Assembly (NCBI GenBank): GCA_022360435.1
Contig: JAKSCU010000494.1
Span: forward strand, 1-37,210
Length of the DNA stretch: 37,210 bases
Origin: Bacillota bacterium
Lineage (GTDB): Bacteria > Bacillota > Desulfotomaculia > Desulfotomaculales > Desulfallaceae
Direction of reading: 5' to 3'
Both the position numbers and the translations under genes were made by a program. How positions within the stretch are numbered: the stretch's first letter is position 1; every line of letters begins with the position of its first letter. Shown here piece by piece: positions 1 through 36,621 of this stretch. Below the pieces are notes generated by a model, which had not been told where the DNA came from, searched no databases, and worked only from the letters and a program-made list of their open reading frames with translations.

Positions 1-12
1 AACTTTTGCCAT
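1..12 (-). CDS. 5' end of a further minus-strand gene (M-A-K-V...), truncated by window edge
   Basis: Minus strand after the aldolase stop reads GGAGGtgcctcaaATGGCAAAAGTT: good Shine-Dalgarno and ATG at 12-10. Confidence 0.6.
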
Positions 13-32
13 TTGAGGCACCTCCAATTGTT

Positions 33-860
33 TTAAACGCAAACACGTATTTTGCGGCGCGCTAATTCTTTTACGGCCGCACATGCCGCCGCGCTTAGTT
101 TCCAGGGTTCGGTTTCACCTTGGTTCAAGCAATCCTTTACCGCTTTGCTCCACGCTATTTTAAGCTCGGTTCCTATGTTAATCTTGGCAATACCCATCTT
201 TATGGTTTTTTTCAACATAGCGTCGGGGATTCCCGAACCGCCATGCAGCACCAGGGGCGCCTCCACCTGCTCGCGTATGGCTTTCAGCCTGGCAAAATCT
301 ATCTTGGGCGCACCCTTGTACAGCCCGTGGGCGGTACCTACGGCCGGGGCCAGGGCGTCCACGCCGCTTTCCCGAACCAGGCGGGCGGCCTCTGCGGGCT
401 CGGCCAGCCCCCCGGCCCCCCCGGTGCCGACCCCGTCTTCGACACCGCCGATATGTCCCAATTCAGCCTCCACCGAAGCTCCGGCGGCATGAGCAAAAGA
501 AGCCGCCAGCTTAGACAGGCGTATATTTTCCGCCAAGGGAAATTTAGAGGCATCCATCATCACCGATGTAAAGCCGTTAACCAAAGACCAGGCGATCCAC
601 CGCAGGTCCTCGCTGTGATCGAGATGAAGCGCGATCCTGACGGACGAAGCCCGGGCCCACTCCCTGGCCAGAGCGGTTATTTGGGGTGGATTTAATTTTT
701 CCAGGTAAAGGGGGGTTATTTCCAAAATAACCGGGGTCTTTTCAATTTCCGCCGCCTCTATGACCGAGCGGATAAAGTCGTAGCCGTAAAAATTGAAGGC
801 CGGCACGGCATACCCGTCTTTTTGCGCCTCCAGTAAAAGTTCCCTGGCTGTTACCAGCAT
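33..860 (-). CDS. Class II ketose-bisphosphate aldolase (Fba/GatY family)
   Basis: HLDHSED, SVMMDAS, EAELGHIGG, GTAHGLYKG, LHGGSGIP and KINIGTEL motifs. Confidence 0.9.
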   Translation of the reverse strand: MLVTARELLLEAQKDGYAVPAFNFYGYDFIRSVIEAAEIEKTPVILEITPLYLEKLNPPQITALAREWARASSVRIALHLDHSEDLRWIAWSLVNGFTSVMMDASKFPLAENIRLSKLAASFAHAAGASVEAELGHIGGVEDGVGTGGAGGLAEPAEAARLVRESGVDALAPAVGTAHGLYKGAPKIDFARLKAIREQVEAPLVLHGGSGIPDAMLKKTIKMGIAKINIGTELKIAWSKAVKDCLNQGETEPWKLSAAACAAVKELARRKIRVCV

Positions 861-899
861 TTATGCACCATCCTTTAGTCAGCAAGTAAATTAAAATAT

Positions 900-1673
900 T
901 CACCAAGCGGTATACCCGCCGTCTACCAAAAGAATGTGCCCGGTAATAAAACTGGCCGCGCCCGATGCGAGAAACACGGCGGCGGGTCCTATTTCCTCCG
1001 GGGCGGCAAATCTCTTCATCGGGGTAAGCTCCAAGGCTGCCTCACTCATGGCGGGATCGGCCATCCACTTATCGTTGAAGGGGGTAGTAAAATAACCCGG
1101 AGCGATTGAGTTCACCCGCACATTATAGCGCGCCCACTCGGTGGCCAAAGACTTGGTGAGCATGATCACACCGCCCTTGGAGGCGCAGTACGCCGAAATT
1201 TTCCTGTCCTTGTTCACAATGGTCCCGGACATGGAAGAAATATTGACAATACTGCCGCTTTTCCGCCGGATCATCTCCCGGCCAACTTTCTGGCAGCATA
1301 AGAAGACCCCTTTAAGATTCACCGCCATAACCTGTTCCCACTCTTGCGCCGCCAGGTATTCGGCGGCCACCTTCTTACCCACACCCGCGCTGGTGACCAG
1401 TATGTCAATACCCTTAAATTCATGTTTTACTTGGGCCACCATTTTTTCCACCTGCCGGGCCATTGACACATCGGTGCGGATAAAAATGGCCCGGCGGCCC
1501 AAATCATTAATTTTGGCTATTATGGAGTCGGCCTCGCCCCCGTCAATGTCCGCCACGGCTATGTCGGCGCCGGCCTGGGCCAGCGCTTGAGCAGCGGCCG
1601 CCCCCAGTCCCGAAGAACCGCCGGTGACAACAGCTTTCTTGCCGGCCAAAGAAAAGCTGGACATCACATCCAA
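900..1673 (-). CDS. Short-chain dehydrogenase/reductase (gluconate 5-dehydrogenase-like)
   Basis: TGGSSGLG Rossmann motif, NISSMSG, YCASKGG catalytic YxxxK, C-terminal GHILLVDGGYTAW. Confidence 0.93.
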   Translation of the reverse strand: MDVMSSFSLAGKKAVVTGGSSGLGAAAAQALAQAGADIAVADIDGGEADSIIAKINDLGRRAIFIRTDVSMARQVEKMVAQVKHEFKGIDILVTSAGVGKKVAAEYLAAQEWEQVMAVNLKGVFLCCQKVGREMIRRKSGSIVNISSMSGTIVNKDRKISAYCASKGGVIMLTKSLATEWARYNVRVNSIAPGYFTTPFNDKWMADPAMSEAALELTPMKRFAAPEEIGPAAVFLASGAASFITGHILLVDGGYTAW

Positions 1674-1686
1674 AGAACAACCCCCC

Positions 1687-2886
1687 TTACAGGCTCAAGG
1701 CCAGGTATTCCGGAAAATCATACTCCAACAGCGGCTTAATCCAGCTTATAAAACATTCCGTCACATCATTATTAACAGCGTCGTAAAACTCAGGCGGCAT
1801 GGTCTTTTCTCCGGCGGCCACCTCGGCCAGGGCTATTGAACCGAACATACCGCCCCCACAGCCGGGGTGGTTTAATGTCACCATTTGCCCGCCGTCGCCG
1901 CGCAAAGCCAGTCCGACAGCCTCCCGGCCAAGCAGAAAAGCCTCTTTCCTGTCCCGGGGGGAGGGACAGGCGCCGAAACTGCGCTGCAGCATGCCCAGGT
2001 CCTGGGCCCTGGCCCGTAATTTCGTTCTGGCGGTAACCAGGCGGGTCAAGCATTCCGCGGCCCCGTGGCGCACAATATGCAGGTTGTCCCCCTGGATGTC
2101 TGAAAAAGGGGTTTGACCTAGATAGGCTCCGCTTTCATCCTTAATGCTTTCGCTCACCACCACCAGCACCCAGCCGTGGCGGCTGTAGACACTCTCCACG
2201 TCTCGCAAAAATTTGTCGGTGCAGAGGGCGTATTCCGGGATATAGATCAGGTGGGGGCCATCTCCCCGCTCCTGTCTCGCCAGCGCGCTGGAAGCCGCGA
2301 TCCAGCCGGCCCTCCGGCCCATGGTTTCAATAATCCTTACCTGCTCAAAAGTACGCATGGACTTGAGGTCCGCGGCCTGGGCCTTAACCGCCAGGGCCGC
2401 GTAAACCGCGGCGCTGGCAAAGCCAGGGGTATGATCGGTGCCGGTTATATCGTTGTCAACAGTCTTGGGTATGCCTATGATTTTCAAGTCCAAACCTTTT
2501 TCCCCGGCCAGCTTTTCGATTTTCGAGCAGGCCGCCATGGTGCCGTTGCCGCCGATACACAGAAGATAGCCGGCGTTGTGCCGGTTCAACACATCCAAAA
2601 CGGCGCGATAATCCTCTGCTTGCATTTCTTTCCGGCTGCCGCCCAGAACAGACCCCGGGGTGTTTTTCAACATCTCCAGGGCATCGGCGCCTAAAGAGCT
2701 TAATTTAATGATCCGGTCGGTCAAAAGCCCCTCAAAGCCGCAAGACGACCCGTAAATTTCATCAACCCGGTCATTATCCCGGCAGGCTTCAATAATACCG
2801 GCCAGCGTGCCATTTATCACCGCCGTCGGGCCTCCGGACTGCAAAACAAAAAGCGTTTTTGGAGTAGAATAATTCATTTGCGCCAT
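1687..2886 (-). CDS. 6-phosphofructokinase family kinase
   Basis: SGGPTAVIN, CIGGNGTMA, GIPKTVDNDITGTDHTPGF and MGRRAGW motifs. Confidence 0.92.
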   Translation of the reverse strand: MAQMNYSTPKTLFVLQSGGPTAVINGTLAGIIEACRDNDRVDEIYGSSCGFEGLLTDRIIKLSSLGADALEMLKNTPGSVLGGSRKEMQAEDYRAVLDVLNRHNAGYLLCIGGNGTMAACSKIEKLAGEKGLDLKIIGIPKTVDNDITGTDHTPGFASAAVYAALAVKAQAADLKSMRTFEQVRIIETMGRRAGWIAASSALARQERGDGPHLIYIPEYALCTDKFLRDVESVYSRHGWVLVVVSESIKDESGAYLGQTPFSDIQGDNLHIVRHGAAECLTRLVTARTKLRARAQDLGMLQRSFGACPSPRDRKEAFLLGREAVGLALRGDGGQMVTLNHPGCGGGMFGSIALAEVAAGEKTMPPEFYDAVNNDVTECFISWIKPLLEYDFPEYLALSL

Positions 2887-2925
2887 ATCTCCTGTAGAAC
2901 AAAGATGTCTGCTTGTTAAAGAGCG

Positions 2926-3951
2926 TTATGGTTTCAGTAAAACCTTGAGACTCTCCCCGGAAGCCATGGCGGCGTCAAACCCTGACTGCGCCGCCTCCAG
3001 GGGAAGCCGGTGGGTAATCACTTCCCGCAGCTCGCTTAGCTGGGGCATTAGGCTGACGGCGGTTTTGAAGTCGTTTGGGGTATACACCCTGCTGCCAAGA
3101 ATGTGCAATTCACGCAGGTTAACATCTTGCAGGTCAACTTGCGCCAACTGCCGGTGAACACCCACCACCACAGCGGTACCGCGCGTCCGCAGCAGCCCGG
3201 TCATCTGGGCCGATGTGGCGGCTGCCGCCGCCGCTTCAAACACTACATCCGCTCCGGCGCCCCGGGTTATATCCAACACCTGCTCTTTGACGGACCCGTT
3301 TTGCGGGTCAAGGGTTTTAAAACCCATTTTGCCGGCTTTTCCCAGCCTAAACGGGCTAACCTCACCCACCGCCACCATCTCAGCGCCGGCGGCCCTTGCC
3401 GCCAGGGCCACCATAAGCCCGATGGGCCCCCCGCCCAAAACCACCACCCGGTCGCCGGCTTGCGCGCCGGAACAGTTTACCGCATGCACCCCCACCGCCA
3501 AGGGTTCCGCCAGGGCCGCAACATCCAAACCCATTCCCTCCGGCACCCGGATAAGCTGGGACGGCCGCACTTTTACATATTCGGCAAAGGCCCCGTCGGT
3601 ATCTATGCCGATGAGCCCCAGTTTTTGGCATACATGCGTATACCCACGCCGGCAAGGGTCGCAGGCCCCGCACCAGAGCAACGGATTGACCGCCACCTGG
3701 TCGCCGGCTTTCCAGTCTCCGCCGCACTCGCCTCCCACATCCGCCACCCAGCCCGACATCTCATGGCCCATAACCAGCGGATACTTAACCCTGGGATTTT
3801 TACCGTGGTATATATGCACATCGCTGCCGCAAATACCGCCATAGCCGACCCGCAAAAGGATCTCGCCGGGCCGGGTGTCGGGCAGTGGCACGGTTTGCAT
3901 CTCCAGCTTGCCGGGAGCCGGAATTTTTAATGCTTTCATGTGTCCTACCAC
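2926..3951 (-). CDS. Zn-dependent medium-chain alcohol/polyol dehydrogenase
   Basis: GGICGSDVHIYHG, GHEMSGWV, structural-zinc CGACDPCRRGYTHVC, GGGPIGLM cofactor motif. Confidence 0.92.
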   Translation of the reverse strand: MVGHMKALKIPAPGKLEMQTVPLPDTRPGEILLRVGYGGICGSDVHIYHGKNPRVKYPLVMGHEMSGWVADVGGECGGDWKAGDQVAVNPLLWCGACDPCRRGYTHVCQKLGLIGIDTDGAFAEYVKVRPSQLIRVPEGMGLDVAALAEPLAVGVHAVNCSGAQAGDRVVVLGGGPIGLMVALAARAAGAEMVAVGEVSPFRLGKAGKMGFKTLDPQNGSVKEQVLDITRGAGADVVFEAAAAAATSAQMTGLLRTRGTAVVVGVHRQLAQVDLQDVNLRELHILGSRVYTPNDFKTAVSLMPQLSELREVITHRLPLEAAQSGFDAAMASGESLKVLLKP

Positions 3952-3968
3952 CTTTTTTGTATTTTGAC

Positions 3969-5261
3969 TTAGCCCGCGTACCCGCCCAAAAGCCTGGGAA
4001 TCAGTAGAACCAGGTCGTCAAAATTCATCAACAAAAGAATCAACAGAATCAGGACTACCATGTACGGCAAGGCGCCCCTGGCCACCCGTTCCAGAGACAA
4101 CCCCGAAAGGTTCATGGCAATGAACAGGTTAACGCCAAGGGGCGGTGAAAGCAGGGCCACCTCATTGACCATAACCCAAATGATGCCGAAAAATATGGGA
4201 TCTATGCCCACCTGGGTTATAACCGGCATGAACACCGGCGCAAGAATAACAATGGTGGCCAGGGTTTCCATAAACATGCCGAGGAAAAAAAGAAGCGCGC
4301 CGATCATCAGCAAAATCAAATATGGCTCGCTGGTAAATCCCAGCATTAACTCCGCCAGTTTCTGCGGTATTTGGTACATGGTGATAAACCGGCCGAACAA
4401 AGTGGAAACACCCACCACGATTATTATCGTGGCCGTTGACATGTTAGTCAGCTTGATGGACTCCCAGAATTCCAGCGGGTTAAGCTTGCGGGTGATAAAA
4501 ATACCCACAAACAACGCGTAAAAAACCGCCACCACCGATGCTTCCACCGGCGTGCATATGCCGGCGTAGATACTGCCCAAAATGACCACGGGAGCCAGCA
4601 GGGACCAGATATTTCTCACCAGGGCCCGGCCAAAATCGGCCAAGGTTTGGGTTTCCATACTTCCTTTAAAGCCCGCGCGCCTGGCATAAATATAAGTGGT
4701 CATCATCAGCACCAGCCCCACCATAAAGCCCGGAAGAAACCCGGCCATGAAAAGAGTCGAAATGGATACATTGGCTATTACCCCGTACACAATCATGGGA
4801 TTGCTGGGTGGAATGAGGATGCCCAGCGTTCCGCCGGTGGCGGTTACTCCGGCCGCATACTCCCGCGAGTATCCTTTTCTTATCATGGAAGGTATCATCA
4901 GGCTGCCCATAGCCGCCACGGTACCGGGACCCGAGCCAATCATGGCGGCGAAAAACATGCATCCCAATATAGTGACCATACCCAGCCCGCCGCGAACACG
5001 GCCTACAATCATGGCGGCTATATCCACAATCTGCGCCGCCATACCGCTCCTTTCCATCAGGGCGCCGGCAAAAATAAATCCCACCACCGCCAGCAGGGGA
5101 AACATATCCGACACTTTCAGCAAGTCCACCGGTATAATACTCAGGGGTATCTCGCTCTGCACCAAGACAACCAGGGACGCAACCCCCAGGGAAACAAAAA
5201 TTGGAGCGCCCAGGGCAAGCATCACAAAAAGAGCAATCCAGATCAACCAGTCCAGAGCCAC
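3969..5261 (-). CDS. dctM: TRAP transporter large permease, DctM subunit
   Basis: 430 aa, many TM helices, GTLGILIPPSNPMIVYG signature. Confidence 0.95.
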   Translation of the reverse strand: MALDWLIWIALFVMLALGAPIFVSLGVASLVVLVQSEIPLSIIPVDLLKVSDMFPLLAVVGFIFAGALMERSGMAAQIVDIAAMIVGRVRGGLGMVTILGCMFFAAMIGSGPGTVAAMGSLMIPSMIRKGYSREYAAGVTATGGTLGILIPPSNPMIVYGVIANVSISTLFMAGFLPGFMVGLVLMMTTYIYARRAGFKGSMETQTLADFGRALVRNIWSLLAPVVILGSIYAGICTPVEASVVAVFYALFVGIFITRKLNPLEFWESIKLTNMSTATIIIVVGVSTLFGRFITMYQIPQKLAELMLGFTSEPYLILLMIGALLFFLGMFMETLATIVILAPVFMPVITQVGIDPIFFGIIWVMVNEVALLSPPLGVNLFIAMNLSGLSLERVARGALPYMVVLILLILLLMNFDDLVLLIPRLLGGYAG

Positions 5262-5762
5262 TTATGACACCCCCCCCAATGTGCCCTGGTCTCCGCCGCG
5301 AAAACGCAGGTACCAACGCTGCACAATCCTGACTATCATCAGCAAGAAAGCTATGGGCAAGGCCACGTAAACATACCGCATGTCCAGCATCAAAGCCCCC
5401 GACACCATCGGTCTCTGGCCCATGTCTTGAATCAGATGCACACCTTTGACCACCACCACAATACTAAAAACAATCCAGATCACATCGGTCAAAACCAGTA
5501 ATAAAGACTGCACTTTTTTGGGCAGCAGGGCTATGTGCGCGGTAACCCTGATATGAATCCCTTTTTGGGCGCCCAGGCTGGCCCCCAGGTAAACCATGTA
5601 CAGGAAAGAAAAGCGGGATACTTCTTCGGCCCAGGCTATGGATATACCCAGAAAATACCGGCATATGACCTGGAGCATCAGAAGGGTCATAATCCAGCAC
5701 AGGAGCGCGCCGCATAAAACTTCCTCAAGGTTATTGAAAAACCACGTCAGTCGCTTAACCAT
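5262..5762 (-). CDS. dctQ: TRAP transporter small permease, DctQ subunit
   Basis: 166 aa, four predicted TM helices, WAEEVSRFSFLYMVYLGAS motif, adjacent to dctM. Confidence 0.92.
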   Translation of the reverse strand: MVKRLTWFFNNLEEVLCGALLCWIMTLLMLQVICRYFLGISIAWAEEVSRFSFLYMVYLGASLGAQKGIHIRVTAHIALLPKKVQSLLLVLTDVIWIVFSIVVVVKGVHLIQDMGQRPMVSGALMLDMRYVYVALPIAFLLMIVRIVQRWYLRFRGGDQGTLGGVS

Positions 5763-5794
5763 ACTGTTTTCTCCTTAATTATTTTGCCGGCGAA

Positions 5795-5822
5795 GCCGGA
5801 GCGGCCCCTAGGCCGCTCCGGC
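5795..5822. other. Perfect 12-bp intercistronic hairpin between dctP and dctQ
   Basis: GCCGGAGCGGCC-ccta-GGCCGCTCCGGC; no following T-run. Confidence 0.85.
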
Positions 5823-5855
5823 AAGCAAAATGATTTGTTCATCACCTTTATCGGG

Positions 5856-6914
5856 TTAAGCTGTGGGCTTTTCCCGGCCCAGGGTATTCATCATTTGGTC
5901 AAGCAGGCGCACGTCTCCGATAGTGTCATAGAATTTGGGCCATATGGACATGGCGTTTTTCATCCACTGGTCTTCGTCCTCAGGGGTGCCGCTTAATATC
6001 ATGCCCTTTTCCTTAAGTAAATCAAGGGTCTCCTGGTCCATCTTCTGCATCAGCGCGCGGTTGTCCATGGTGGCGTCCCTGCCGGCTTGGATAATGGCTT
6101 CCTGGACATCCGCCGGCTGGCTCTTGAGCCACTGCTCGTTCACCACCACCGGGACGACCCACATTTTATAGTGGATATCGGTGACATATTTTTGCACCTC
6201 GTAAAATTTATTGGTGGCAATAACCGGATAGGGATTTTCCTGGCCGTCCACAACTTTTTGCTGCAGGGCGTTGAATGTCTCGTCCCAGGCAATGGGAACC
6301 GGCTCACAATCCCAGGCCTTAAATGTTTCCACCATGATGGGGTTAACCGGCACCCGAATTTTCAGTCCTTTTAAATCAGCCATGGTATTAACCGGCTTTT
6401 TGCTGTTGGTAAGCACCCGAAATCCTTGCTCAAGCCAGGCTATGGCTACGTTTCCGCTTTCCTCAGCCATAAGTTGGTTAATATCATCCCAGTTTTCATC
6501 GATAACCGTGTAAAACTCGTCCCGGTCCTTAAACAGGTAAGGGAGGTCGAAAACCCCCAGCGAAGGGCTGAAAACACTGGCATTGTTCACCGCCAGCGAA
6601 GTGGCCTGCACTATCTGCTGCTGAACGTCCTGAAAGCCCTTCTGCTCGCTGCCCAACTGGCCGGCCGGGAAAATTTGCACCTCAACCCGTCCCTCGGTGG
6701 CTTTTTCCACCGACTCTTTGAACTTTAACGCCGCCGCCTGGTGCGGATCCGTCATAGCAGTACCGGCGCTATGGGTGTATTTGATTACAATTTTTTCATC
6801 TACCGCGGCTCCCTTGTCCCCTTCTTTTCCATCCTTATCGCCGCCGCACCCGGCCAGCGCCAACACCGCCGCCAGCGCAACCACCAGAGCCGCTACCTGC
6901 CAACCTCTGCTCAT
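5856..6914 (-). CDS. dctP: TRAP transporter solute-binding protein, DctP family lipoprotein
   Basis: Lipobox LALAGCGG; FPAGQLGS; LKGLKIRVPVNPI containing the usual ligand-carboxylate Arg position. Confidence 0.93.
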   Translation of the reverse strand: MSRGWQVAALVVALAAVLALAGCGGDKDGKEGDKGAAVDEKIVIKYTHSAGTAMTDPHQAAALKFKESVEKATEGRVEVQIFPAGQLGSEQKGFQDVQQQIVQATSLAVNNASVFSPSLGVFDLPYLFKDRDEFYTVIDENWDDINQLMAEESGNVAIAWLEQGFRVLTNSKKPVNTMADLKGLKIRVPVNPIMVETFKAWDCEPVPIAWDETFNALQQKVVDGQENPYPVIATNKFYEVQKYVTDIHYKMWVVPVVVNEQWLKSQPADVQEAIIQAGRDATMDNRALMQKMDQETLDLLKEKGMILSGTPEDEDQWMKNAMSIWPKFYDTIGDVRLLDQMMNTLGREKPTA

Positions 6915-6995
6915 TGTCTTTACCTCCTCCTAATCAAGCTTAAAATTCCTGTCGTTTACGATAAAGAAACCCGGATACGCGCCATCGTTTTTTTG

Positions 6996-7937
6996 TCAGG
7001 CACGGCGCATAATTTTCCTGGCCAGCCCGGCGATATTTTCGGCCGTAAGGTTAAACGCTTTTAACAGTTCATCATAGCTGCACGCCGACTGCCCAAAGGA
7101 GTCTTTTACGCCTATGCTTTCCACCACCACCCCCGGCATGTTTTTTAAAGTCCCGCCAATTGCGTCTCCCAGCCCCCCAATCAAGCTGTGCTCCTCCACG
7201 GTTATTGCTCTGCCGGTCCCACCGGCCAGCGCGCGCACGACTTGCTCCTCAAGGGGCTTAATGGTGCTGACATTGGCCACCGTAAGGTCAATGCCTTCCG
7301 GGGCCAAGGATTCGGCCGCTTCAAGGGCCATGGCAACCATGGTCCCGCAAGCGAAAACCACAATATCCCGGCCCTGGCGGAGAACGTGGATCTTGCCCAC
7401 GGTAAAATCCCGGTCCCGGGGAAAAACCGCCGGCACCTCATCCCGGGGAAGCCGAATGTAAACAGGCCCGTGGTATTTGGCCGCCCACCGCACGGCCTCA
7501 ACAGCCTCCGCGGCGTCGCTGGGCACAATAACGGTCATTCCCGGCAGCGCCCGCATAAGAGCTATGTCCTCGGTTGACTGGTGGGTGCCTCCGTCGGGAT
7601 AATTGGAAAAACCGGCCGACGAGCCGACAAGCTTGACATTGGTGCGACTCAAGGCCACTCCCACCCTTATCTGGTCGTAGGCTCGGCCCACAAGAAAATT
7701 GGCGAATGTGTTAACAAACGGTGTTTTGCCGGTCAAAGCCAGGCCCACTGCCACCGACACCATATTTTGCTCGGCAATGCCCATTTCAAAAAAATTTTCC
7801 GGGTGCGCTTTCTGAACCATGGCCGACCTGGTACCGATGGAAAGGTCGGCATCCAGCACAACACAACTCGGGTTTTCTGCAACCAGTTCAACCAGGGCTT
7901 GCCCGTACGCGTCCCTTACACTTGGCGTTATGGCCAT
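6996..7937 (-). CDS. Transketolase, C-terminal subunit
   Basis: LDADLS, FFEMGIAEQNM, DGGTHQSTEDIALMR, PGMTVIVPSDA motifs; adjacent to N-terminal subunit. Confidence 0.93.
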   Translation of the reverse strand: MAITPSVRDAYGQALVELVAENPSCVVLDADLSIGTRSAMVQKAHPENFFEMGIAEQNMVSVAVGLALTGKTPFVNTFANFLVGRAYDQIRVGVALSRTNVKLVGSSAGFSNYPDGGTHQSTEDIALMRALPGMTVIVPSDAAEAVEAVRWAAKYHGPVYIRLPRDEVPAVFPRDRDFTVGKIHVLRQGRDIVVFACGTMVAMALEAAESLAPEGIDLTVANVSTIKPLEEQVVRALAGGTGRAITVEEHSLIGGLGDAIGGTLKNMPGVVVESIGVKDSFGQSACSYDELLKAFNLTAENIAGLARKIMRRA

Positions 7938-7939
7938 TT

Positions 7940-8776
7940 TTATCTGCCTCCCCCGGAATTTAAGCCTTGGATGGCCTTTTGATATAGCTCGTCGGTTAAA
8001 AACACATGGTGGTAAGAGCCGTCGTTTTCGGCAAACGGAAAACCTTTTCCCTTTATGGTGCGGGCTATGACTGCTTTTGGGCGCCCGCTTACCGCGGCCA
8101 GGCCGTCCAGGGTATCGGCCAGCGCTTTTAGGTCATGCCCGTCTACCTCTGTGACAAACCACCCGAAAGCGGCAAGCTTTTCTTTTATGGAACCCATGTC
8201 CACCAGGTCGCATATCTTTCCGGTGCAGGCAAAGCCGTTGGCGTCAACCACAGCCACCAGATTATCCAGCTTGTAGGCCGAGGCGGCGATGGCCGCCTCC
8301 CATATTTGCCCTTCGTACATTTCACCGTCCCCAAGCAAAACATAAACACAATAAGATTTTTTATCCATTCTGGCCCCCAGGGCCATGCCCAACCCCACCG
8401 AAAGCCCCTGCCCCAGGGACCCGGTACAAACTTCCACCCCAGGCACCCTGTCGTTTTCCGGATGCCCCTGCAGATTGGCGCCCACTTCTTTGAATTTGCC
8501 AAGCTCTTGCCGCGGGAAATATCCCGCCTGGGCCAGAGTGGCGTAAAGCGCCTGGCTGGCATGGCCCTTGCTCAGCAAAAAACGGTCTCTGTCAGGCCAG
8601 TCGGGTTCGGATGGCCGGTGGCTCATCTTGTGGAAGTACAGTGCGGTGACGATATCCGCGCACGAAGCGGAACCGCCCAAATGGCAAGCTTTTTTGGTGC
8701 CGGCCATGTTTACTATGTCCAACCGCACTTGTTTGGCCTTTTCCTCCAGCTCCTTGACTTTTGCCAAAGATATCAT
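7940..8776 (-). CDS. Transketolase, N-terminal (ThDP-binding) subunit
   Basis: DRDRFLLSKGHASQALYA, TGSLGQGLSVGLGMA, LLGDGEMYEGQIWEA ThDP motif. Confidence 0.93.
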   Translation of the reverse strand: MISLAKVKELEEKAKQVRLDIVNMAGTKKACHLGGSASCADIVTALYFHKMSHRPSEPDWPDRDRFLLSKGHASQALYATLAQAGYFPRQELGKFKEVGANLQGHPENDRVPGVEVCTGSLGQGLSVGLGMALGARMDKKSYCVYVLLGDGEMYEGQIWEAAIAASAYKLDNLVAVVDANGFACTGKICDLVDMGSIKEKLAAFGWFVTEVDGHDLKALADTLDGLAAVSGRPKAVIARTIKGKGFPFAENDGSYHHVFLTDELYQKAIQGLNSGGGR

Positions 8777-8854
8777 TTTTTAAAAAACCTCCCGCCGGTA
8801 GAGCAGTTATTTGTTTGATTAATTAGAAAACAATACCGACTATTGCAATGCCGA

Positions 8855-9307
8855 CTATTGACCAAATCTGGATTCGATATCGGCAATTTTGGCCAGCTTG
8901 GGCAAAGTGGCTCCCCCGCCGTACTCCGTGGTCAAAAAAAGTTTAATTAACATTCTGGCGGCATCAATACCCGTGATCCATGAACCAAGGGCCATAATTT
9001 GGGCGTCATTGTTGAACCTTGACCGGTAGGCCGTGACAATATCCGGGCACTGGGCGGCCCTGATGCCCGGCACCTTGTTGGCGGTTATAGCCATGCCCAC
9101 TCCGGTGCCGCAGATTAGAACTCCGCGGTCGGCCTTGCCTTCCTTTACAGCCAGGGACACATTCAGGGCCACATCGGGGTAGTCCACGGGTTCTATGTTA
9201 TGACACCCGTAATCCTGGATAACAAAACCCAATTCCCGTATATAATCTTTCATATCCTCTTTTAAATTGAAACCAAACTGATCCGAACCAATAGCCACTT
9301 TTAGCAA
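8855..9307 (-). CDS. RpiB/LacAB-family sugar isomerase, divergent
   Basis: GVLICGTGVGMAITANK and YPDVALNVSLAV motifs; TTG start at 9307 with GGAGG 7 nt upstream fits the family N-terminus better than the track start at 9538. Confidence 0.85.
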   Translation of the reverse strand: MLKVAIGSDQFGFNLKEDMKDYIRELGFVIQDYGCHNIEPVDYPDVALNVSLAVKEGKADRGVLICGTGVGMAITANKVPGIRAAQCPDIVTAYRSRFNNDAQIMALGSWITGIDAARMLIKLFLTTEYGGGATLPKLAKIADIESRFGQ

Positions 9308-9556
9308 AACTTTTCCTCCTCCCTCATTAACTGAGATTTTTATTTTTAAAACCATGGCAGGCCAAAGGCCATTAGCAACACATCGGGGCATTTCTTTATC
9401 CACGAGGTCCCCCTGAAAAAAGTTTTGGTGAGCGGTTTGGTATTTTCCCAAATTGCCACTGGCTTTCATATCCGGTAACCCCAAACCCCGCCGCAAGTTT
9501 TTTTTGGGGGAGACGCTATGTAAAATGGCGGCCGGCAAAGCATGTCTTGGGATGAA

Positions 9557-10345
9557 TTAGCCGCTAAAACTACCTGGGGGCTCTAAAATACCTTCACAAT
9601 TGTTGCTTTGATCCCGGGTTAATTTGACGCGATATTTATATCTGTCCGCCCTGTATACGTTTATGGAAAGTTCCACCGGCCGGCCTCCGGAGTAAAGCGT
9701 TCTTTCCATGATCAAAATTGGAAAACCAGTCTCCACCCGCAGGTATTGCGCCTCCTTATTGCCAGCGATACCAGCGGCAATAGTCTGTTCCGCCTCTTCC
9801 AGGTTAACGCCAAGCTTCTCCTCGGCCAGTTCGTAAAGGCCGTGCTGCGATATGTCAAATTCAGCCAAGCGTTTTCCATATTCAAAGGGCCAATAACTCC
9901 TTAAATATACAACCGGTTGGTCATTCATCATCTGCAGCTTTTCAACCAGGTACAGCTTTTGTCTGCCGAATACGCTAAGCTGGGGAATTTTTTCTATAGT
10001 TTGTAGCGTTAATTCCACCGGCTCGACGTTTAAAACTTTTGAACTGGGTTTATATCCTCTCTTTCTCATCTCCTCAAAAAAACCGGTCAGCTTGCTTAAA
10101 GTTTCCTCCACGTGCTCTTTTCTTACAAAAGTCCCCTTGCCGGGCAAACGCTCAAGCCAGCCCTCGTAAACCAACTCCGAAATCGCTCTTCTTACGGTGG
10201 TGCTGCTTACACCATATTGTTCCATCAATTGCTTATCGGTGGGAAACTGGTCGCCCAGATTCCATTTTCCCTCTTTTATATCATTGCGCAGATCATTGGT
10301 TATCTGAAAGTGAAGCGGTACAGGCCTTGAGCTTATGGTCCTCAT
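9557..10345 (-). CDS. GntR-family transcriptional regulator with UTRA domain (HutC subfamily)
   Basis: PLHFQITNDLRNDIKEGKWNLGDQFPTDKQLMEQYGVSSTTVRRAISELVYEGWLERLPGKGTFV winged helix, C-terminal UTRA-like domain. Confidence 0.94.
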   Translation of the reverse strand: MRTISSRPVPLHFQITNDLRNDIKEGKWNLGDQFPTDKQLMEQYGVSSTTVRRAISELVYEGWLERLPGKGTFVRKEHVEETLSKLTGFFEEMRKRGYKPSSKVLNVEPVELTLQTIEKIPQLSVFGRQKLYLVEKLQMMNDQPVVYLRSYWPFEYGKRLAEFDISQHGLYELAEEKLGVNLEEAEQTIAAGIAGNKEAQYLRVETGFPILIMERTLYSGGRPVELSINVYRADRYKYRVKLTRDQSNNCEGILEPPGSFSG

Positions 10346-10364: not shown

Positions 10365-10426
10365 AATTATACAAAGTTACAAAGTTACAAAGTTACAATA
10401 TTACAATATTGCAACTTTGTATAATT
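10365..10426. promoter_or_regulatory. Operator-like element: 14-bp perfect inverted repeat flanking tandem octamers, upstream of gntR
   Basis: AATTATACAAAGTT (10365-10378) and AACTTTGTATAATT (10413-10426); three ACAAAGTT (10371-10394) then two ACAATATT (10395-10410); contains TATAAT in both orientations. Confidence 0.75.
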
Positions 10427-10490
10427 ATATTTTTTGTATGGACTATTGTCAATAACTTTGATGTTATTTTTCTGCGAATTTATACAATTT

Positions 10491-13790: not shown

Positions 13791-14246
13791 GTGGTGGTGG
13801 GTATGATAGTTACCAATAAGCAAAAGACTAATTTGGCTTCTTTCTTTGCAAACCAACCCGAGATTATCGTCGCATATTTATTCGGTTCCCAGGCCAAAGA
13901 TACGGCAGGTCCGATGAGTGACATCGATCTGGCGGTATTGGTGAACCCCGCCGTTTCGCATGAAAAAAAATATCCCTTCGGGTATCGTGCTCATTTGATT
14001 ACTGAATTAAGCAGGGTTTTGCATACAAACGAGCTTGACGTAATTGTTTTGAACGAGGTTCCCCCGCTGCTCAAGTTCCAGGTTATTTATCACGGGGAGG
14101 TTATTTTTTGCCGCTCCAAAAACAAGAGACTGGATTTCCAACTGCAAACTTTCAACGAATACCAGGACATTCGCCCCATGTTGGTCGTGCAGTATGATTA
14201 TATGTTGAAACGCCTGGAGAAAAAAAAACGGGATTTTTCATCTTAA
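13791..14246 (+). CDS. mntA: MntA-type minimal nucleotidyltransferase antitoxin
   Basis: GSQAKDTAGPMSDID fits GSX10DXD; followed immediately by hepT-like gene. Confidence 0.85.
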   Translation: MVVGMIVTNKQKTNLASFFANQPEIIVAYLFGSQAKDTAGPMSDIDLAVLVNPAVSHEKKYPFGYRAHLITELSRVLHTNELDVIVLNEVPPLLKFQVIYHGEVIFCRSKNKRLDFQLQTFNEYQDIRPMLVVQYDYMLKRLEKKKRDFSS

Positions 14247-14262
14247 CACAGTAGCTTAAAAC

Positions 14263-14706
14263 ATGCTTGCCCGGGGAGGGCTGCCATTGGTTGCTGACCG
14301 GCAAATGGTACTAGATAAATTGAATCAGCTGGAAATGTATGTTGAGGAATTGGAGTCATTACAAAAATATAGTATTGATGACCTCCAGCGTCACCTTGCC
14401 AACCTGTGGACAGTAACCCACGGGCTTCAGCTTTCCATCCAGATTATACTTGATGTGGGCAACCACCTGCTTTCAGACCTGGGTATCAAGGTTGGCGATT
14501 ACACCGAAATCATTGACAAAATGGGGGAAACAGGTATTATACCCGGACCCTTTGCCCAAAAAATTCGCGGCATGGCGGGTTTTAGAAATGTGCTGGTGCA
14601 CGGGTATATCACCTTGAACATTAATCAGGTATATCAAGTGCTGCAAAACAACCTTACTGATTTTATTGACTTTAATAATTACGTTAACAAATACTTGAAT
14701 GGTTAA
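14263..14706 (+). CDS. hepT: HepT-like (DUF86) RNase toxin
   Basis: RNVLVHGY fits RX4HXY; helical HEPN-like protein paired with a nucleotidyltransferase. Confidence 0.87.
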   Translation: MLARGGLPLVADRQMVLDKLNQLEMYVEELESLQKYSIDDLQRHLANLWTVTHGLQLSIQIILDVGNHLLSDLGIKVGDYTEIIDKMGETGIIPGPFAQKIRGMAGFRNVLVHGYITLNINQVYQVLQNNLTDFIDFNNYVNKYLNG

Positions 14707-16418: not shown

Positions 16419-17066
16419 CTAACTTTTGGGTACCCTGGCCCAGTCGGTTAAAAATTTTTCAATTCCCAGGTCGGTAAGGGGGTGTTTGAGCATTTGCATC
16501 AACACTTTATAGGGGACAGTGGCGACGTGTGCGCCCGCCAGGGCGGATTGGGTGACGTGCAGCGGGTGCCTGATGCTGGCGGATATTATCTGCGCATCCA
16601 GGTTGTGAATATCGAACACGGAGACTATTTGTTCCACCAGCGCTATCCCGTCATGGCCGATATCGTCCATGCGACCGACAAAGGGGCTGATATAGGCGGC
16701 TCCGGCCAGGGCGGCCATCAGGGCCTGATTGGCGGAGAAAACCAGGGTAACGTTGGTTTTGACACCTTCCCGCGACAATACGCTTACGGCTTTCAAACCT
16801 TCAGCATTCATGGGAATCTTGACCACAATGTTGGTGTGTATGGCCGCCAGTTCCCGAGACTCTTGGATCATGGGGCCGGCCTGGGTGCTGACCGCCTCGG
16901 CGCTCACCGGGCCGTCGATAATGGAAACAATCTCCCGGACCACTCCCACAAAGTCCCGGCCTTCCCGGGCAATCAGTGACGGGTTGGTGGTTACCCCGCT
17001 AATTACACCCAGTTCGGCTGCGGCTTTAATCTCAGCTACGTTGGCGGTATCGATAAACAGTTTGAT
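16419..17066 (-). CDS. fsa: Transaldolase / fructose-6-phosphate aldolase family (FSA), apparently non-canonical start codon
   Basis: Minus strand GGGGAGGtgtattgccATCAAACTGTTTATCGATACCGCCAAC gives (I)KLFIDTAN then VTTNPSL and [14 protein letters not shown]; the track ORF begins only at an internal ATG. Confidence 0.87.
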
Positions 17067-17102: not shown

Positions 17103-17957
17103 CTATACTCGTCCGGAGCTGCCGAAAAGCCTAATTTTTTCGCTGATCAGTTCCACCGCCGCTTCCCGGGCCGGGCCCAGTATCTTGCGCGGGTCAATTT
17201 CTTCGGGGTTGTCGGTAACAACCTGCCGGCAGCAATCAACGAAAGCTTCCCGGATGTTGGTGTCAATGTTGATTTTGCGTACCCCCAGGCGGATGGCCTC
17301 CCGGATGGCGTCGCCGGGAACGCCGGAGGAGCCGTGCAGCACAATGGGGATGCCGACCAGGGAGCGTATTTTCTCCAGCCGGGCGAAATCCAGTTTGGGT
17401 TCGCCCTTGTAACGCCCGTGGGCGGTACCTATGGCCACGGCCAGAGCGTCCACGCCGGTTTCCGCCACGAACCGGCCGGCCTCGTCGGGGTCGGTGAAGA
17501 AAGCGTCGGCGTCATCAACGTGGATATCGTCCTCGGTGCCGCCGATTTTGCCTAGTTCGGCCTCCACGGATACGCCAACCGGGCGGGCCGCCGCCATCAC
17601 CTGTTTGGTAAGGGCAATGTTGTCATCCAGCGAGTGTTTGGAACCGTCGATCATTACGGATGAAAAGCCGGACCGTATGCAGCGCATCACCTGTTCAAAG
17701 CTGGTGCCGTGGTCAAGGTGCAGGGCCACCGGCACATCCGCCATGGAAGCGGCCACATTGGCCATGGCGGTTATGTATTCAATGCCGGCGTATTTAATGG
17801 CGCCCTGGCTGGCCTGCATAATCACCGGCGCCCGCTCGGCCCGAGCGGCGGCGGCAATGGCTTGCACTATTTCCATGTTGTTGCAGTTAAAAGCGCCCAC
17901 GGCATAACCGCCGGCCTCGGCTTCCTTTAGTAAATCGCTGATGGGTACCAAACCCAT
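17103..17957 (-). CDS. fba: Class II fructose-1,6-bisphosphate aldolase
   Basis: LHLDHGTSFEQ, GFSSVMIDGS, EAELGKIGG, LHGSSGVPGD, KINIDTN motifs. Confidence 0.95.
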   Translation of the reverse strand: MGLVPISDLLKEAEAGGYAVGAFNCNNMEIVQAIAAAARAERAPVIMQASQGAIKYAGIEYITAMANVAASMADVPVALHLDHGTSFEQVMRCIRSGFSSVMIDGSKHSLDDNIALTKQVMAAARPVGVSVEAELGKIGGTEDDIHVDDADAFFTDPDEAGRFVAETGVDALAVAIGTAHGRYKGEPKLDFARLEKIRSLVGIPIVLHGSSGVPGDAIREAIRLGVRKINIDTNIREAFVDCCRQVVTDNPEEIDPRKILGPAREAAVELISEKIRLFGSSGRV

Positions 17958-34009: not shown

Positions 34010-34375
34010 CTACACACAGCCGGTGGGTTTGGGTAGTCCCGCCAGCTTGCAGGCGCCCTTGGCCGGTCCGGAGGGAAACAAGTCATAAATGTACTTCAGG
34101 CTGCAGCCCGTTTCCTTGCACAGCTTGCGGACCATGGGCGCGATGTGGTACTGTTTGAAGTACGCCCTCAGGTAGTTAATCACTTTCCAGTGGTATTCGT
34201 TCAGTTGGGTTATTCCCTCGGAGGCGGCGAATGCCCTGGCCACATCTTCGTTCCACAAGTCGGGATCAATCATAAAGCCGTCTTCGTCCAGCTCAATTTC
34301 CACGCCGTTAACGGTTATGCAAGGCACAGCTGCATGCACCCCCATTTCCTGACCAGCTGAAAAATCTATTTCCAA
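34010..34375 (-). CDS. dsrC: DsrC sulfur carrier protein
   Basis: C-terminal arm CKLAGLPKPTGCV with two Cys spaced by ten residues; GFMIDPDLWNEDVA. Start could instead be 34345. Confidence 0.95.
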   Translation of the reverse strand: MEIDFSAGQEMGVHAAVPCITVNGVEIELDEDGFMIDPDLWNEDVARAFAASEGITQLNEYHWKVINYLRAYFKQYHIAPMVRKLCKETGCSLKYIYDLFPSGPAKGACKLAGLPKPTGCV

Positions 34376-35748
34376 ACCAGGGCCTTACCCACCAGGTCGA
34401 TAAGACCCTTGACTTCGACGCCCAGTTCGTGTTCCTCCACCATCGGGTACAGTTGGGCCTTGCAGATGGAGCACGGGGCGCACAGGATGCCGTTGCCGCC
34501 CTTGCCCACGCCGGTGGCCCGCACCTGGTCGGCTTTCTTCTGGCTGAGCTGGATGCGCTTCTGGTACATTTCCGGGTCGTCGAACAGGATGCCCGAACCG
34601 CCGCCGCAACAGAAGTTATCCATACCATTGGGGGTCATTTCCCGAAAGTCCGTGGTAACGGCGTTCATAATGACGCGCATGTTCTCGTTCAGGCCGCAGG
34701 CGCGCACGTAATTGCACGGGTCGTGCAGTGTGGCGGGCTGCGAGTTGTTCTCGGGGTTCAGTTTCAACTCGCCCTTGCGGATCAGATCGGCGACTTCGTC
34801 ATGGATGTGGGTTATGGGCCAGCGCATCGGCCGGTCGGCCAGGGATGGAATGTACATCTTGGCCGCCCGCCAACCGTGGCCGCACTCACCCCAGACGATC
34901 TTCTTGGCGCCCAGTTCGTGCGCCGCGTTCAGCAAGCGATTGACATTGCCCCGCTGGGTATAGTACTGGTCAAACAGAAACCCGAAGTTGCCGGCCTCGG
35001 TAACGGTGCTGGGGATGGTCCAATTGGCGCCGATATATTTAAAGAACATGCCCGCGCCCATCAGGGTGTACTCGTTCAGCATAAAGTCCGCCGAGGATGG
35101 GATGTAAATAATATCCGAATCCGGCTTGTCGACGGGAAAGTCAACCTCGGCGCCGAAAATATCCATGATTTCCTCGGACATGAACTCCAAGGTGTCAACA
35201 ATGCCCGGCTTGGGCAAGGTCATATGGTTGCCCGTCTTTTCCATGCCGCCGCCGGTAGTGGCGTGCAGCTTGGGCGTAATGCCCAGCCAGTGCAGGATCT
35301 GGCGGCCGACGAAAGTCACCTCGCAGGTGTCGATGCCGAAGGGGCACACATGGGCGCACCGGCGACACTGACTGCACTGGTAGTAGTAAGAGTACCACTG
35401 TTCGATAACGTCCAGGCTGATATCCTCGGCGCCCACCAACTTGCCGAACCAGCGCCCTTCCAGGGTGAAGTAACGGCGGTAGATCTTGCGGATCAGTTCG
35501 GCCCGGTTGCCGGGAATGTTGTTTGGATCCTGGGTGCCCAGATAAGTGTGGCAATTTTCGGCACACTGGCCGCACTTGACGCAGGATTCCATGGCCACCA
35601 CGAAGGAGCGAAATTTCTTGCGAATATCATCCAGGTACTCCAGCGCTTTTTGCGGCTTTTGCTCGTCGGGCACCGGCTCGACAAAAATTTTGCGCAGTTC
35701 TTCAGGAGTAGCCCGAACCGGTTGTGTCATTCCATTATATTCTGGCAT
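34366..35748 (-). CDS. dsrK: DsrK, HdrD-like iron-sulfur subunit of DsrMK
   Basis: CVKCGQCAENC and CSQCRRCAHVC clusters; CCG motifs NFCCGGGSG and LCAPCSICK; position before dsrC. Confidence 0.94.
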   Translation of the reverse strand: MPEYNGMTQPVRATPEELRKIFVEPVPDEQKPQKALEYLDDIRKKFRSFVVAMESCVKCGQCAENCHTYLGTQDPNNIPGNRAELIRKIYRRYFTLEGRWFGKLVGAEDISLDVIEQWYSYYYQCSQCRRCAHVCPFGIDTCEVTFVGRQILHWLGITPKLHATTGGGMEKTGNHMTLPKPGIVDTLEFMSEEIMDIFGAEVDFPVDKPDSDIIYIPSSADFMLNEYTLMGAGMFFKYIGANWTIPSTVTEAGNFGFLFDQYYTQRGNVNRLLNAAHELGAKKIVWGECGHGWRAAKMYIPSLADRPMRWPITHIHDEVADLIRKGELKLNPENNSQPATLHDPCNYVRACGLNENMRVIMNAVTTDFREMTPNGMDNFCCGGGSGILFDDPEMYQKRIQLSQKKADQVRATGVGKGGNGILCAPCSICKAQLYPMVEEHELGVEVKGLIDLVGKALVWK

Positions 35749-35751
35749 AAT

Positions 35752-36621
35752 TTATACCCCCTCCCCGGCGGTATCGCCGGACGGAACCCCTATACCGGCT
35801 TTACGGGCCGCCGCTACGTCAACATCGGGTATGCCCGGGGCGGGATCTTTGTAAACCCGGTTGACAATCCAACGCTCGGCGAACATACCGAATAGATGCA
35901 TCAGTTTACTGAACGGGAGAATAATCAACATAATCTGCACCAGCAGGTAGTGGACCAGGAAAAAGCCGTTGTCCAGAAGGGACATGCCCATAACCGGCTG
36001 GAACGTGGCCAGGGCCAGCATGTAGTCCCGTACAGGCACATAGCCCACGTTTACGGCGGGGAACAAGCGCATAATGTTGCCCACACCCACCAGCGCAATC
36101 AGGTAAACCAGCCACAGGTTGTCGCTCAGCCTGGTTGTTTCCCTGACGGGTCTAATGCTTACGCGCCTATACAGCAGGTAAAGCAAAGCGACGAACAGTA
36201 AAATGCCGAATACCGTGCCCAGTATGTTGGACATGGCTTTGCTCAGTTCCGGGGTGATACCCAGGCCCGGGATCAAAGCAAACTGCTGGCCCAATAAGCT
36301 GAAACCCACCACATGCCCGGCGATGATGCTAAGCAGGGCAATGTGCATTAAAATGGCGCCGGCCCACAGGGCTTTATCAAATCTGAACAAGTTGCGGAAC
36401 AGGAAAGCTTCCGAGCCTATCCTTATAGCCACTTCGGTGTTGTTATTCAGCCAGGGTGAAAGTGTGATATTGTGAACAATCCGCGCTCCCACCCAGCGAC
36501 CCAGGCGGTACATTACACCCAGGGTAAAAAGGATTACCGTGATATACGGTAATATTTGTCCAATTAGTAATTGCACTAGTGCACCTCCCTGGAGCATAGC
36601 CCTTTTATCTTTAAGGGCCAA
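35752..36621 (-). CDS. dsrM: DsrM, membrane cytochrome b subunit (NarI-like) of DsrMK
   Basis: Polytopic NarI-like protein with HIALLSIIAGHVVGF; next to dsrK. Confidence 0.92.
   Translation of the reverse strand: MALKDKRAMLQGGALVQLLIGQILPYITVILFTLGVMYRLGRWVGARIVHNITLSPWLNNNTEVAIRIGSEAFLFRNLFRFDKALWAGAILMHIALLSIIAGHVVGFSLLGQQFALIPGLGITPELSKAMSNILGTVFGILLFVALLYLLYRRVSIRPVRETTRLSDNLWLVYLIALVGVGNIMRLFPAVNVGYVPVRDYMLALATFQPVMGMSLLDNGFFLVHYLLVQIMLIILPFSKLMHLFGMFAERWIVNRVYKDPAPGIPDVDVAAARKAGIGVPSGDTAGEGV

Follow-up and report, generated by a model that had tools for sequence, protein, structure and literature searches.

The 37,210-nucleotide contig JAKSCU010000494.1 of a Bacillota bacterium of the Desulfallaceae (assembly GCA_022360435.1), analysed here in full as "the window", carries at its start an operon which, with about an even chance, degrades an imported sugar acid (aldonate) through repeated ketol transfer. 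Eleven collinear genes on the minus strand (bases 33-10345) bring together a split transketolase, an unusual RpiB-family isomerase, a tripartite ATP-independent periplasmic (TRAP) importer, two dehydrogenases, a phosphofructokinase and an aldolase. On a somewhat more tentative level, below even chances, this assembly may represent an undescribed aldonate route spread across anaerobic bacteria of the Firmicutes type, with keto-aldonates cleaved by a transketolase clade dedicated to it. The window would then hold its fully iterative version, matching the sulfo-transketolase pathway on the carboxylate side, with an RpiB devoid of phosphate binding in place of the reductase GarR. Computation establishes the gene content, the clade and residue changes of the transketolase, the neighbourhood counts and the absence of GarR from the host, whereas the substrates and reactions are predicted.

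Transketolase residues and clade

When compared with E. coli TktA, the operon enzyme (subunits TktN and TktC) retains all the catalytic residues His26, His66, His100, His261, His473 and Glu411, as well as Arg358 and Arg520 (E. coli numbering). Its TktC subunit carries in contrast three replacements, His461→Ser, Ser385→Gly and Glu468→Pro, and reads GSSAG where the ordinary pentose-phosphate loci show an ATHAG-type motif with His461. His461 has been associated with phosphate binding of the natural substrates, and the H461S mutation raised the activity on non-phosphorylated aldehydes (PMC3657141). The engineered E. coli TktA variant R358I/H461S/R520Q acts on 5-ketogluconate to give tartaric semialdehyde (PMC12016104); the operon enzyme shares with this laboratory enzyme the H461S change and the proposed ketol transfer from a keto-aldonate, but it retains R358 and R520 and adds S385G. 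The structure of a split transketolase is known (PMC7661550). Judged from its residues and its phylogeny, the split transketolase of the operon, which is 48-50% identical to the ordinary split transketolase of its own host (contig C438), is not a pentose-phosphate enzyme.

A search of 300 genomes of the phylum initially returned one clear outlier (G208, TktC 59% identity) and two more loci with the GSSxG motif; a profile made from four GSSxG loci then brought further ones. A tree built from 59 TktN+TktC concatenations groups the window with 17 relatives in a single clade of 18, here called GSS-type (support 100/100), apart from ordinary split TktNC and from the apiose enzymes AptAB. Within it, the window pairs at 100/98 with G208, its nearest relative (58% identity). 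The GSSxG motif, with Ser at position 461, is present in all 19 clade loci, and the TktN motif is of the GHLGGS type, with CHLGGS as the version found in the window.

The neighbourhoods of this clade are also distinctive. Of the 19 clade loci, 14 have a gene for GarR (tartronate-semialdehyde reductase) no more than 1.5 kb away and five do not, while none of 60 ordinary loci has one; at the same distance, a short-chain dehydrogenase/reductase (SDR) or a zinc-dependent alcohol dehydrogenase (Zn-ADH) is found in 16/19 and 0/60, respectively. The genes are typically arranged as FadR-ADH-tktN-tktC-garR or as FadR-garR-tktN-tktC-SDR. At each of the three loci where it was tested, GarR scored over the tartronate-semialdehyde reductase cut-off and under that of sulfolactaldehyde reductase. 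Homologues of the operon Zn-ADH adjoin clade TktNC in other genomes, and importers of organic anions are found near the clade genes, of the TRAP family in the window and G208 and of the tripartite tricarboxylate transporter (TTT) family in G336. In G553, clade TktNC occurs together with a TRAP permease, a PdxA-type dehydrogenase and a threonate-kinase-like protein. The same region (locus L219, G553:C131:32000-51900) also encodes an iron-dependent alcohol dehydrogenase, acetoin/pyruvate-dehydrogenase-type E1 subunits, a second TktNC pair and two Zn-ADHs.

Because His461 is replaced by Ser in all clade loci, and because of the GarR and SDR/Zn-ADH neighbours, the clade transketolases probably draw ketol units from keto-sugar acids. 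In the simplest reading, an SDR or Zn-ADH would produce the keto-aldonate, the transketolase would remove a ketol, and the aldehyde acid left over would be reduced by GarR or enter tetronate metabolism. If the starting compound were a pentonate, what is left over would be tartronate semialdehyde itself.

Several observations weigh against a sugar-acid substrate for the operon. The neighbourhood counts come from related loci, which are phylogenetically non-independent, and several clade relatives have sugar ABC importers instead of TRAP or TTT ones. The pairing of RpiB with clade TktNC was met in the window only. Retention of Arg358 and Arg520 is expected for a phosphorylated acceptor such as glyceraldehyde-3-phosphate and is no proof of a non-phosphorylated donor. 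Ser at position 461 is also found in a Rhizobium apiose-type TktC, so the loss of His461 alone is no proof of an acid substrate. The operon is moreover incomplete, and a gene beyond the contig end could alter the picture.

Two further split transketolases are plasmid-borne. The plasmid NZ_CP087599.1 of Paracoccus sp. MA (L152:7042-12577) has the order TktN-TktC-SDR-TRAP; this homologue, with His26→Tyr, His100→Ser and Arg358→Ala, is perhaps functionally no transketolase. In a Streptomyces sp. NBC_01006 plasmid (L148, 9917-11808), a split transketolase lies within a biosynthetic cluster with LysW/amino-acid-carrier and non-ribosomal peptide synthetase genes.

Operon genes and the proposed route

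The sequence-only reading had listed the gene order gntR-rpiB-tktN-tktC-dctPQM-Zn-ADH-pfk-SDR-fba for a TRAP-fed operon matching no textbook pathway. Both descriptions are borne out, with the eleven genes collinear as listed and tightly spaced (gaps of 0-93 bp from tktN downstream). From the promoter to the contig end, the features are as follows.

10424-10452, minus strand: sigma-70-type promoter TTGACA-17-TATAAT upstream of gntR, 12/12 consensus positions
10366-10425, no strand assigned: A+T-rich palindrome/repeat TACAAAGTTnCAATATTGTAAnTTTGTA between promoter and gntR, read from the sequence
9557-10345, minus strand: GntR/UTRA (HutC-type) regulator, Pfam GntR and UTRA, under every NCBIfam equivalog cut-off
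8855-9307, minus strand: RpiB-family isomerase, PF02502, start TTG after GGAGGAGG
7940-8776, minus strand: TktN, transketolase N-terminal subunit, motif ACHLGGS, assigned from residues and tree
6996-7937, minus strand: TktC, transketolase C-terminal subunit, motif GSSAG with H461S, S385G and E468P
5856-6914, minus strand: DctP, TRAP solute-binding lipoprotein, PF03480, closest solved chains 4pfr, 24gg and 24gh
5262-5762, minus strand: DctQ, TRAP small permease, weak YiaM match and place between dctP and dctM
3969-5261, minus strand: DctM, TRAP large permease, TIGR00786 over cut-off
2926-3951, minus strand: Zn-dependent (medium-chain, MDR) polyol/sugar-acid-type dehydrogenase (the Zn-ADH), Tdh/inosose-dehydrogenase/IdnD family, under equivalog cut-offs
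1687-2886, minus strand: 6-phosphofructokinase (PFK) of the pyrophosphate (PPi)-PFK-like branch, PRK14072 over cut-off, GGNGT and PKTVDND
900-1673, minus strand: SDR dehydrogenase of the gluconate-5-dehydrogenase/KduD-like group, family match, 52% identity to SDRs beside clade TktNC in G336 and G128
33-860, minus strand: class II ketose-bisphosphate aldolase, GatY/KbaY-like, TIGR00167 over cut-off, best solved relative 1gvf
1-12, minus strand: start of a further operon gene (ATG GCA AAA GTT), ribosome-binding site GGAGGTG and ATG, cut by the contig end

The isomerase is the second altered enzyme. It retains Cys66 (catalytic) and Thr68 of E. coli RpiB, and shows the replacements His10→Gln, His99→Asn, Arg110→Trp, Arg133→Ala, His134→Thr and Arg137→Lys, at positions which we take to have phosphate-binding or ring-opening roles. 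It still scores over the TIGR01120 cut-off, despite this loss of ribose-5-phosphate isomerase B residues. In the RpiB tree, it falls on a long branch in a 21-row clade lacking His99 (support 99), outside the pentose-phosphate RpiBs. The split transketolase and divergent RpiB of the sequence-only reading are therefore upheld by residues and phylogeny, neither protein being placed by the trees with the pentose-phosphate enzymes. The same His99-less clade includes RpiBs of dihydroxyacetone-kinase-type operons, which may be erythrulose-phosphate isomerases. An enzyme that isomerises a short aldehyde acid, open-chain and without phosphate, would fit the residue changes, and the operon RpiB probably isomerises the leftover aldehyde acid, enabling a second ketol removal.

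A scan of the contigs of the sampled genomes with RpiB gave three poor matches and no operon relative, and plasmid searches with RpiB, TktN and TktC gave best matches of at most 51%. The RpiBs of Halomonas PA16-9, Pseudalkalibacillus and E. gilvus were set aside as operon relatives, as they sit in dihydroxyacetone-kinase-type operons. The RpiB variants beside TktN'/TktC' in G259, G333, G356, G160 and G198 are non-orthologous, with another transketolase type, a transaldolase and a PHP phosphoesterase. A conserved cassette is seen in L139 (G259:C3) and L140-L143, where a split transketolase of another type (TktC motif GTDxxFS) and a His99-less RpiB are accompanied by a transaldolase-like protein and a PHP-domain phosphoesterase.

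Taken together, these elements point to a route whose substrate, a C6 or C5 aldonate, and whose reactions are all predicted. DctPQM would take up the sugar acid. The SDR and/or the Zn-ADH would then oxidise the hydroxyl adjoining the terminal CH2OH; the product would be a keto-aldonate without phosphate, for instance 5-ketogluconate (C6) or a 4-ketopentonate (C5). When TktNC transfers its C2 ketol to glyceraldehyde-3-phosphate, xylulose-5-phosphate would be formed, and either tartaric or tartronic semialdehyde would be left as the aldehyde acid. In the relatives, GarR would reduce this acid to glycerate or a similar acid. No GarR is found in the visible operon, nor in the whole host genome at E<=1e-10, and RpiB would in its place turn the aldehyde acid into a ketose acid, either tartaric semialdehyde into 2,4-dihydroxy-3-oxobutanoate or tartronate semialdehyde into hydroxypyruvate. 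A second TktNC round would leave glyoxylate from a C6 start, or CO2 via hydroxypyruvate from a C5 start.

Fructose-6-phosphate, made from xylulose-5-phosphate through pentose-phosphate reactions, is likely recycled by PFK and the aldolase to the triose-phosphate acceptor, glyceraldehyde-3-phosphate. The operon PFK has Gly (GGNGT) where the PPi enzymes have Asp, yet it keeps the Lys of the PPi branch (PKTVDND); one residue alignment of this PFK is equivocal near R162 and carries no weight in the argument.

In the open-access literature, no natural transketolase route was found for keto-aldonates or sugar acids, only engineered or in vitro work. The logic of the cassette is that of a known kind of pathway; its enzyme clade is new, and so, probably, is its class of substrate. 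If this is true, transketolase would serve in nature as the entry point of non-phosphorylated sugar acids, and a recurring cassette (GntR-type regulator, TktN, TktC, GarR, SDR or Zn-ADH) annotated just as "transketolase" would be explained. Natural enzymes would also become available for the ketol transfer from 5-ketogluconate towards tartaric semialdehyde, hitherto sought by mutation of E. coli TktA. For a lineage with sulfate-reduction genes, it provides a testable prediction of a sugar-acid substrate.

Alternative substrates and comparison with known systems

The likeliest alternative, although itself improbable, is a phosphorylated tetritol or pentitol. The clade shared by the operon RpiB with those linked to the dihydroxyacetone kinase DhaK would fit such a substrate, as would the resemblance of PFK and aldolase to phosphorylated-sugar enzymes, and the operon is cut at the contig end. 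However, the loss of phosphate ligands goes further in the operon RpiB than in its DhaK-linked counterparts, the TktNC clade is linked to GarR and not to DhaK, and PFK is the sole kinase in the visible operon. TRAP importers, besides, usually carry anions. The EryI comparison suggested in the sequence-only reading points the same way: EryI/DerI, the D-erythrulose-4-phosphate isomerase, shares PF02502 with the window RpiB and the aldose-ketose isomerisation of a four-carbon sugar predicted for it, but the window RpiB is devoid of the phosphate ligands and reaches only 98 bits against the DerI model NF051858 (NCBIfam), whose cut-off is 240 bits.

A route of the sulfo-transketolase type, starting from a sulfonated sugar (for example sulfoquinovose or sulfofructose), with TktNC acting as SqwGH, RpiB as SqwI and a C2 sulfonate left at the end, looks improbable. 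The logic itself is shared. The operon displays a pair of genes seen in that pathway (SqvD, SqwGH, SqwI, SqwF), those of a split transketolase and a PF02502 isomerase, the isomerase of the sulfo route acting on a C4 sugar (PMC11659671, PMC9594981). The proposed aldonate route would likewise strip a C6 ketose, which bears a non-phosphate anion at its far end, of two ketol units, with glyceraldehyde-3-phosphate as acceptor and xylulose-5-phosphate as product. In the sulfo-transketolase route, the activity of SqwI itself was not directly measured (PMC9594981). Sulfate-reducer-type DsrK/DsrM-like genes lie on the same contig, and the DctP matches include an isethionate-binding DctP and entries of the TRAP series for 2,3-dihydroxypropanesulfonate (DHPS).

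The enzymes around this core differ, however. The clade neighbours are tartronate-semialdehyde reductases and not sulfonate enzymes, and the dehydrogenases, the TRAP importer and the GarR-linked relatives point to a carboxylate; two sugar-acid-type dehydrogenases would be superfluous in a sulfo-transketolase pathway, while PFK and aldolase are additional in the operon. DUF4867/SqvB (PF16161), which is usual, not universal, has no match in the host genome. The visible part of the operon, which is cut at the contig end, contains no SqwF-type alcohol dehydrogenase (PF00465), no SqwD/SqwKL, and neither sulfoquinovose isomerase nor sulfoquinovosidase, in line with the absence of a sulfoquinovosidase or dedicated aldose-ketose isomerase remarked on earlier. 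Ten genomes scored over the cut-off when DUF4867 was used as a beacon for sulfo-transketolase loci, with no TktNC nearby in the loci fetched. Of the sulfonated or acidic sugar initially envisaged, the SqwGH/SqwI-like logic thus stands, whereas a sulfonated substrate is disfavoured and has no positive support in a comparison which did not include SqwGH/SqwI sequences.

Equally improbable is a broad-specificity accessory module, in which paralogous transketolase, isomerase, PFK and aldolase would raise central carbon flux while the two dehydrogenases oxidise an unrelated TRAP substrate. The host does possess counterparts elsewhere, with a housekeeping split TktNC on C438, an ordinary RpiB on C53 and a housekeeping aldolase at window 17103-17957. 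The operon paralogues, however, differ precisely in the residues that bind phosphate, a change that flux boosting does not require, and their transketolase falls in the clade linked to GarR. D-apiose catabolism, also raised by the sequence-only reading, is rejected: it features a split transketolase with His461 replaced too, in a sugar-catabolic operon (the E. coli SE15 AptAB cluster type supports growth on apiose, PMC13001218), but AptAB forms its own clade (100/97) with 35-37% identity to the operon TktNC, and where the operon has TRAP and RpiB, the apiose system has a kinase and an ABC importer for sugars.

For the preferred aldonate route, L-idonate/5-ketogluconate catabolism (IdnD, IdnO) offers a partial parallel, since the Zn-ADH and SDR could similarly converge on a 5-keto-hexonate. 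Identities are however limited to 33% (IdnD) and 39% (IdnO), and the Idn pathway ends in gluconate kinase, not transketolase.

Operon boundaries, possible lateral acquisition and neighbouring genes

Among 13 promoter-like sites of the region (shuffles average 8.4), the gntR promoter ranks first, and the palindrome that follows is probably the GntR operator. At the other end, GGAGGTGCCTCAAATGGCAAAAGTT extends from the aldolase stop up to base 1, with GGAGGTG followed by ATGGCAAAAGTT. This ribosome-binding site and the ATG at bases 12-1 imply at least one more operon gene beyond the contig end, as had been anticipated. The window spans all of contig C582 in a host genome of 3.5 Mb and 626 contigs (98% complete, 6.9% contaminated), and no other host contig has the same end.

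Operon genes have a lower GC content at third positions (51-68%) than the housekeeping genes on the same contig (69-78%), and the other sampled genomes of the class contain no GSS-type transketolase and no comparably close RpiB. Both features suggest that the operon was acquired laterally, beside the core genes rho, pyrG and argS. The second class II aldolase of the window (17103-17957, minus strand) makes the operon aldolase a paralogue; it adjoins a housekeeping transaldolase/fructose-6-phosphate aldolase-like gene (16419-16949, minus strand). Two more transketolase-like gene pairs lie on short host contigs (G000:C169:131-910 and G000:C30:11-1119), one of them cut by the contig edge.

Further along the window, adjoining genes at 34366-36621 (minus strand) encode DsrK-like (396 bits, cut-off 400) and DsrM-like (72 bits, cut-off 300) proteins; though below the equivalog cut-offs, this pair is consistent with sulfite/sulfate reduction. 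At 13791-14706 (plus strand), a small nucleotidyltransferase is followed by a HEPN-like small protein, as in MNT/HEPN-type pairs, and the nucleotidyltransferase gave weak PADLOC matches (PDC-S09) only.

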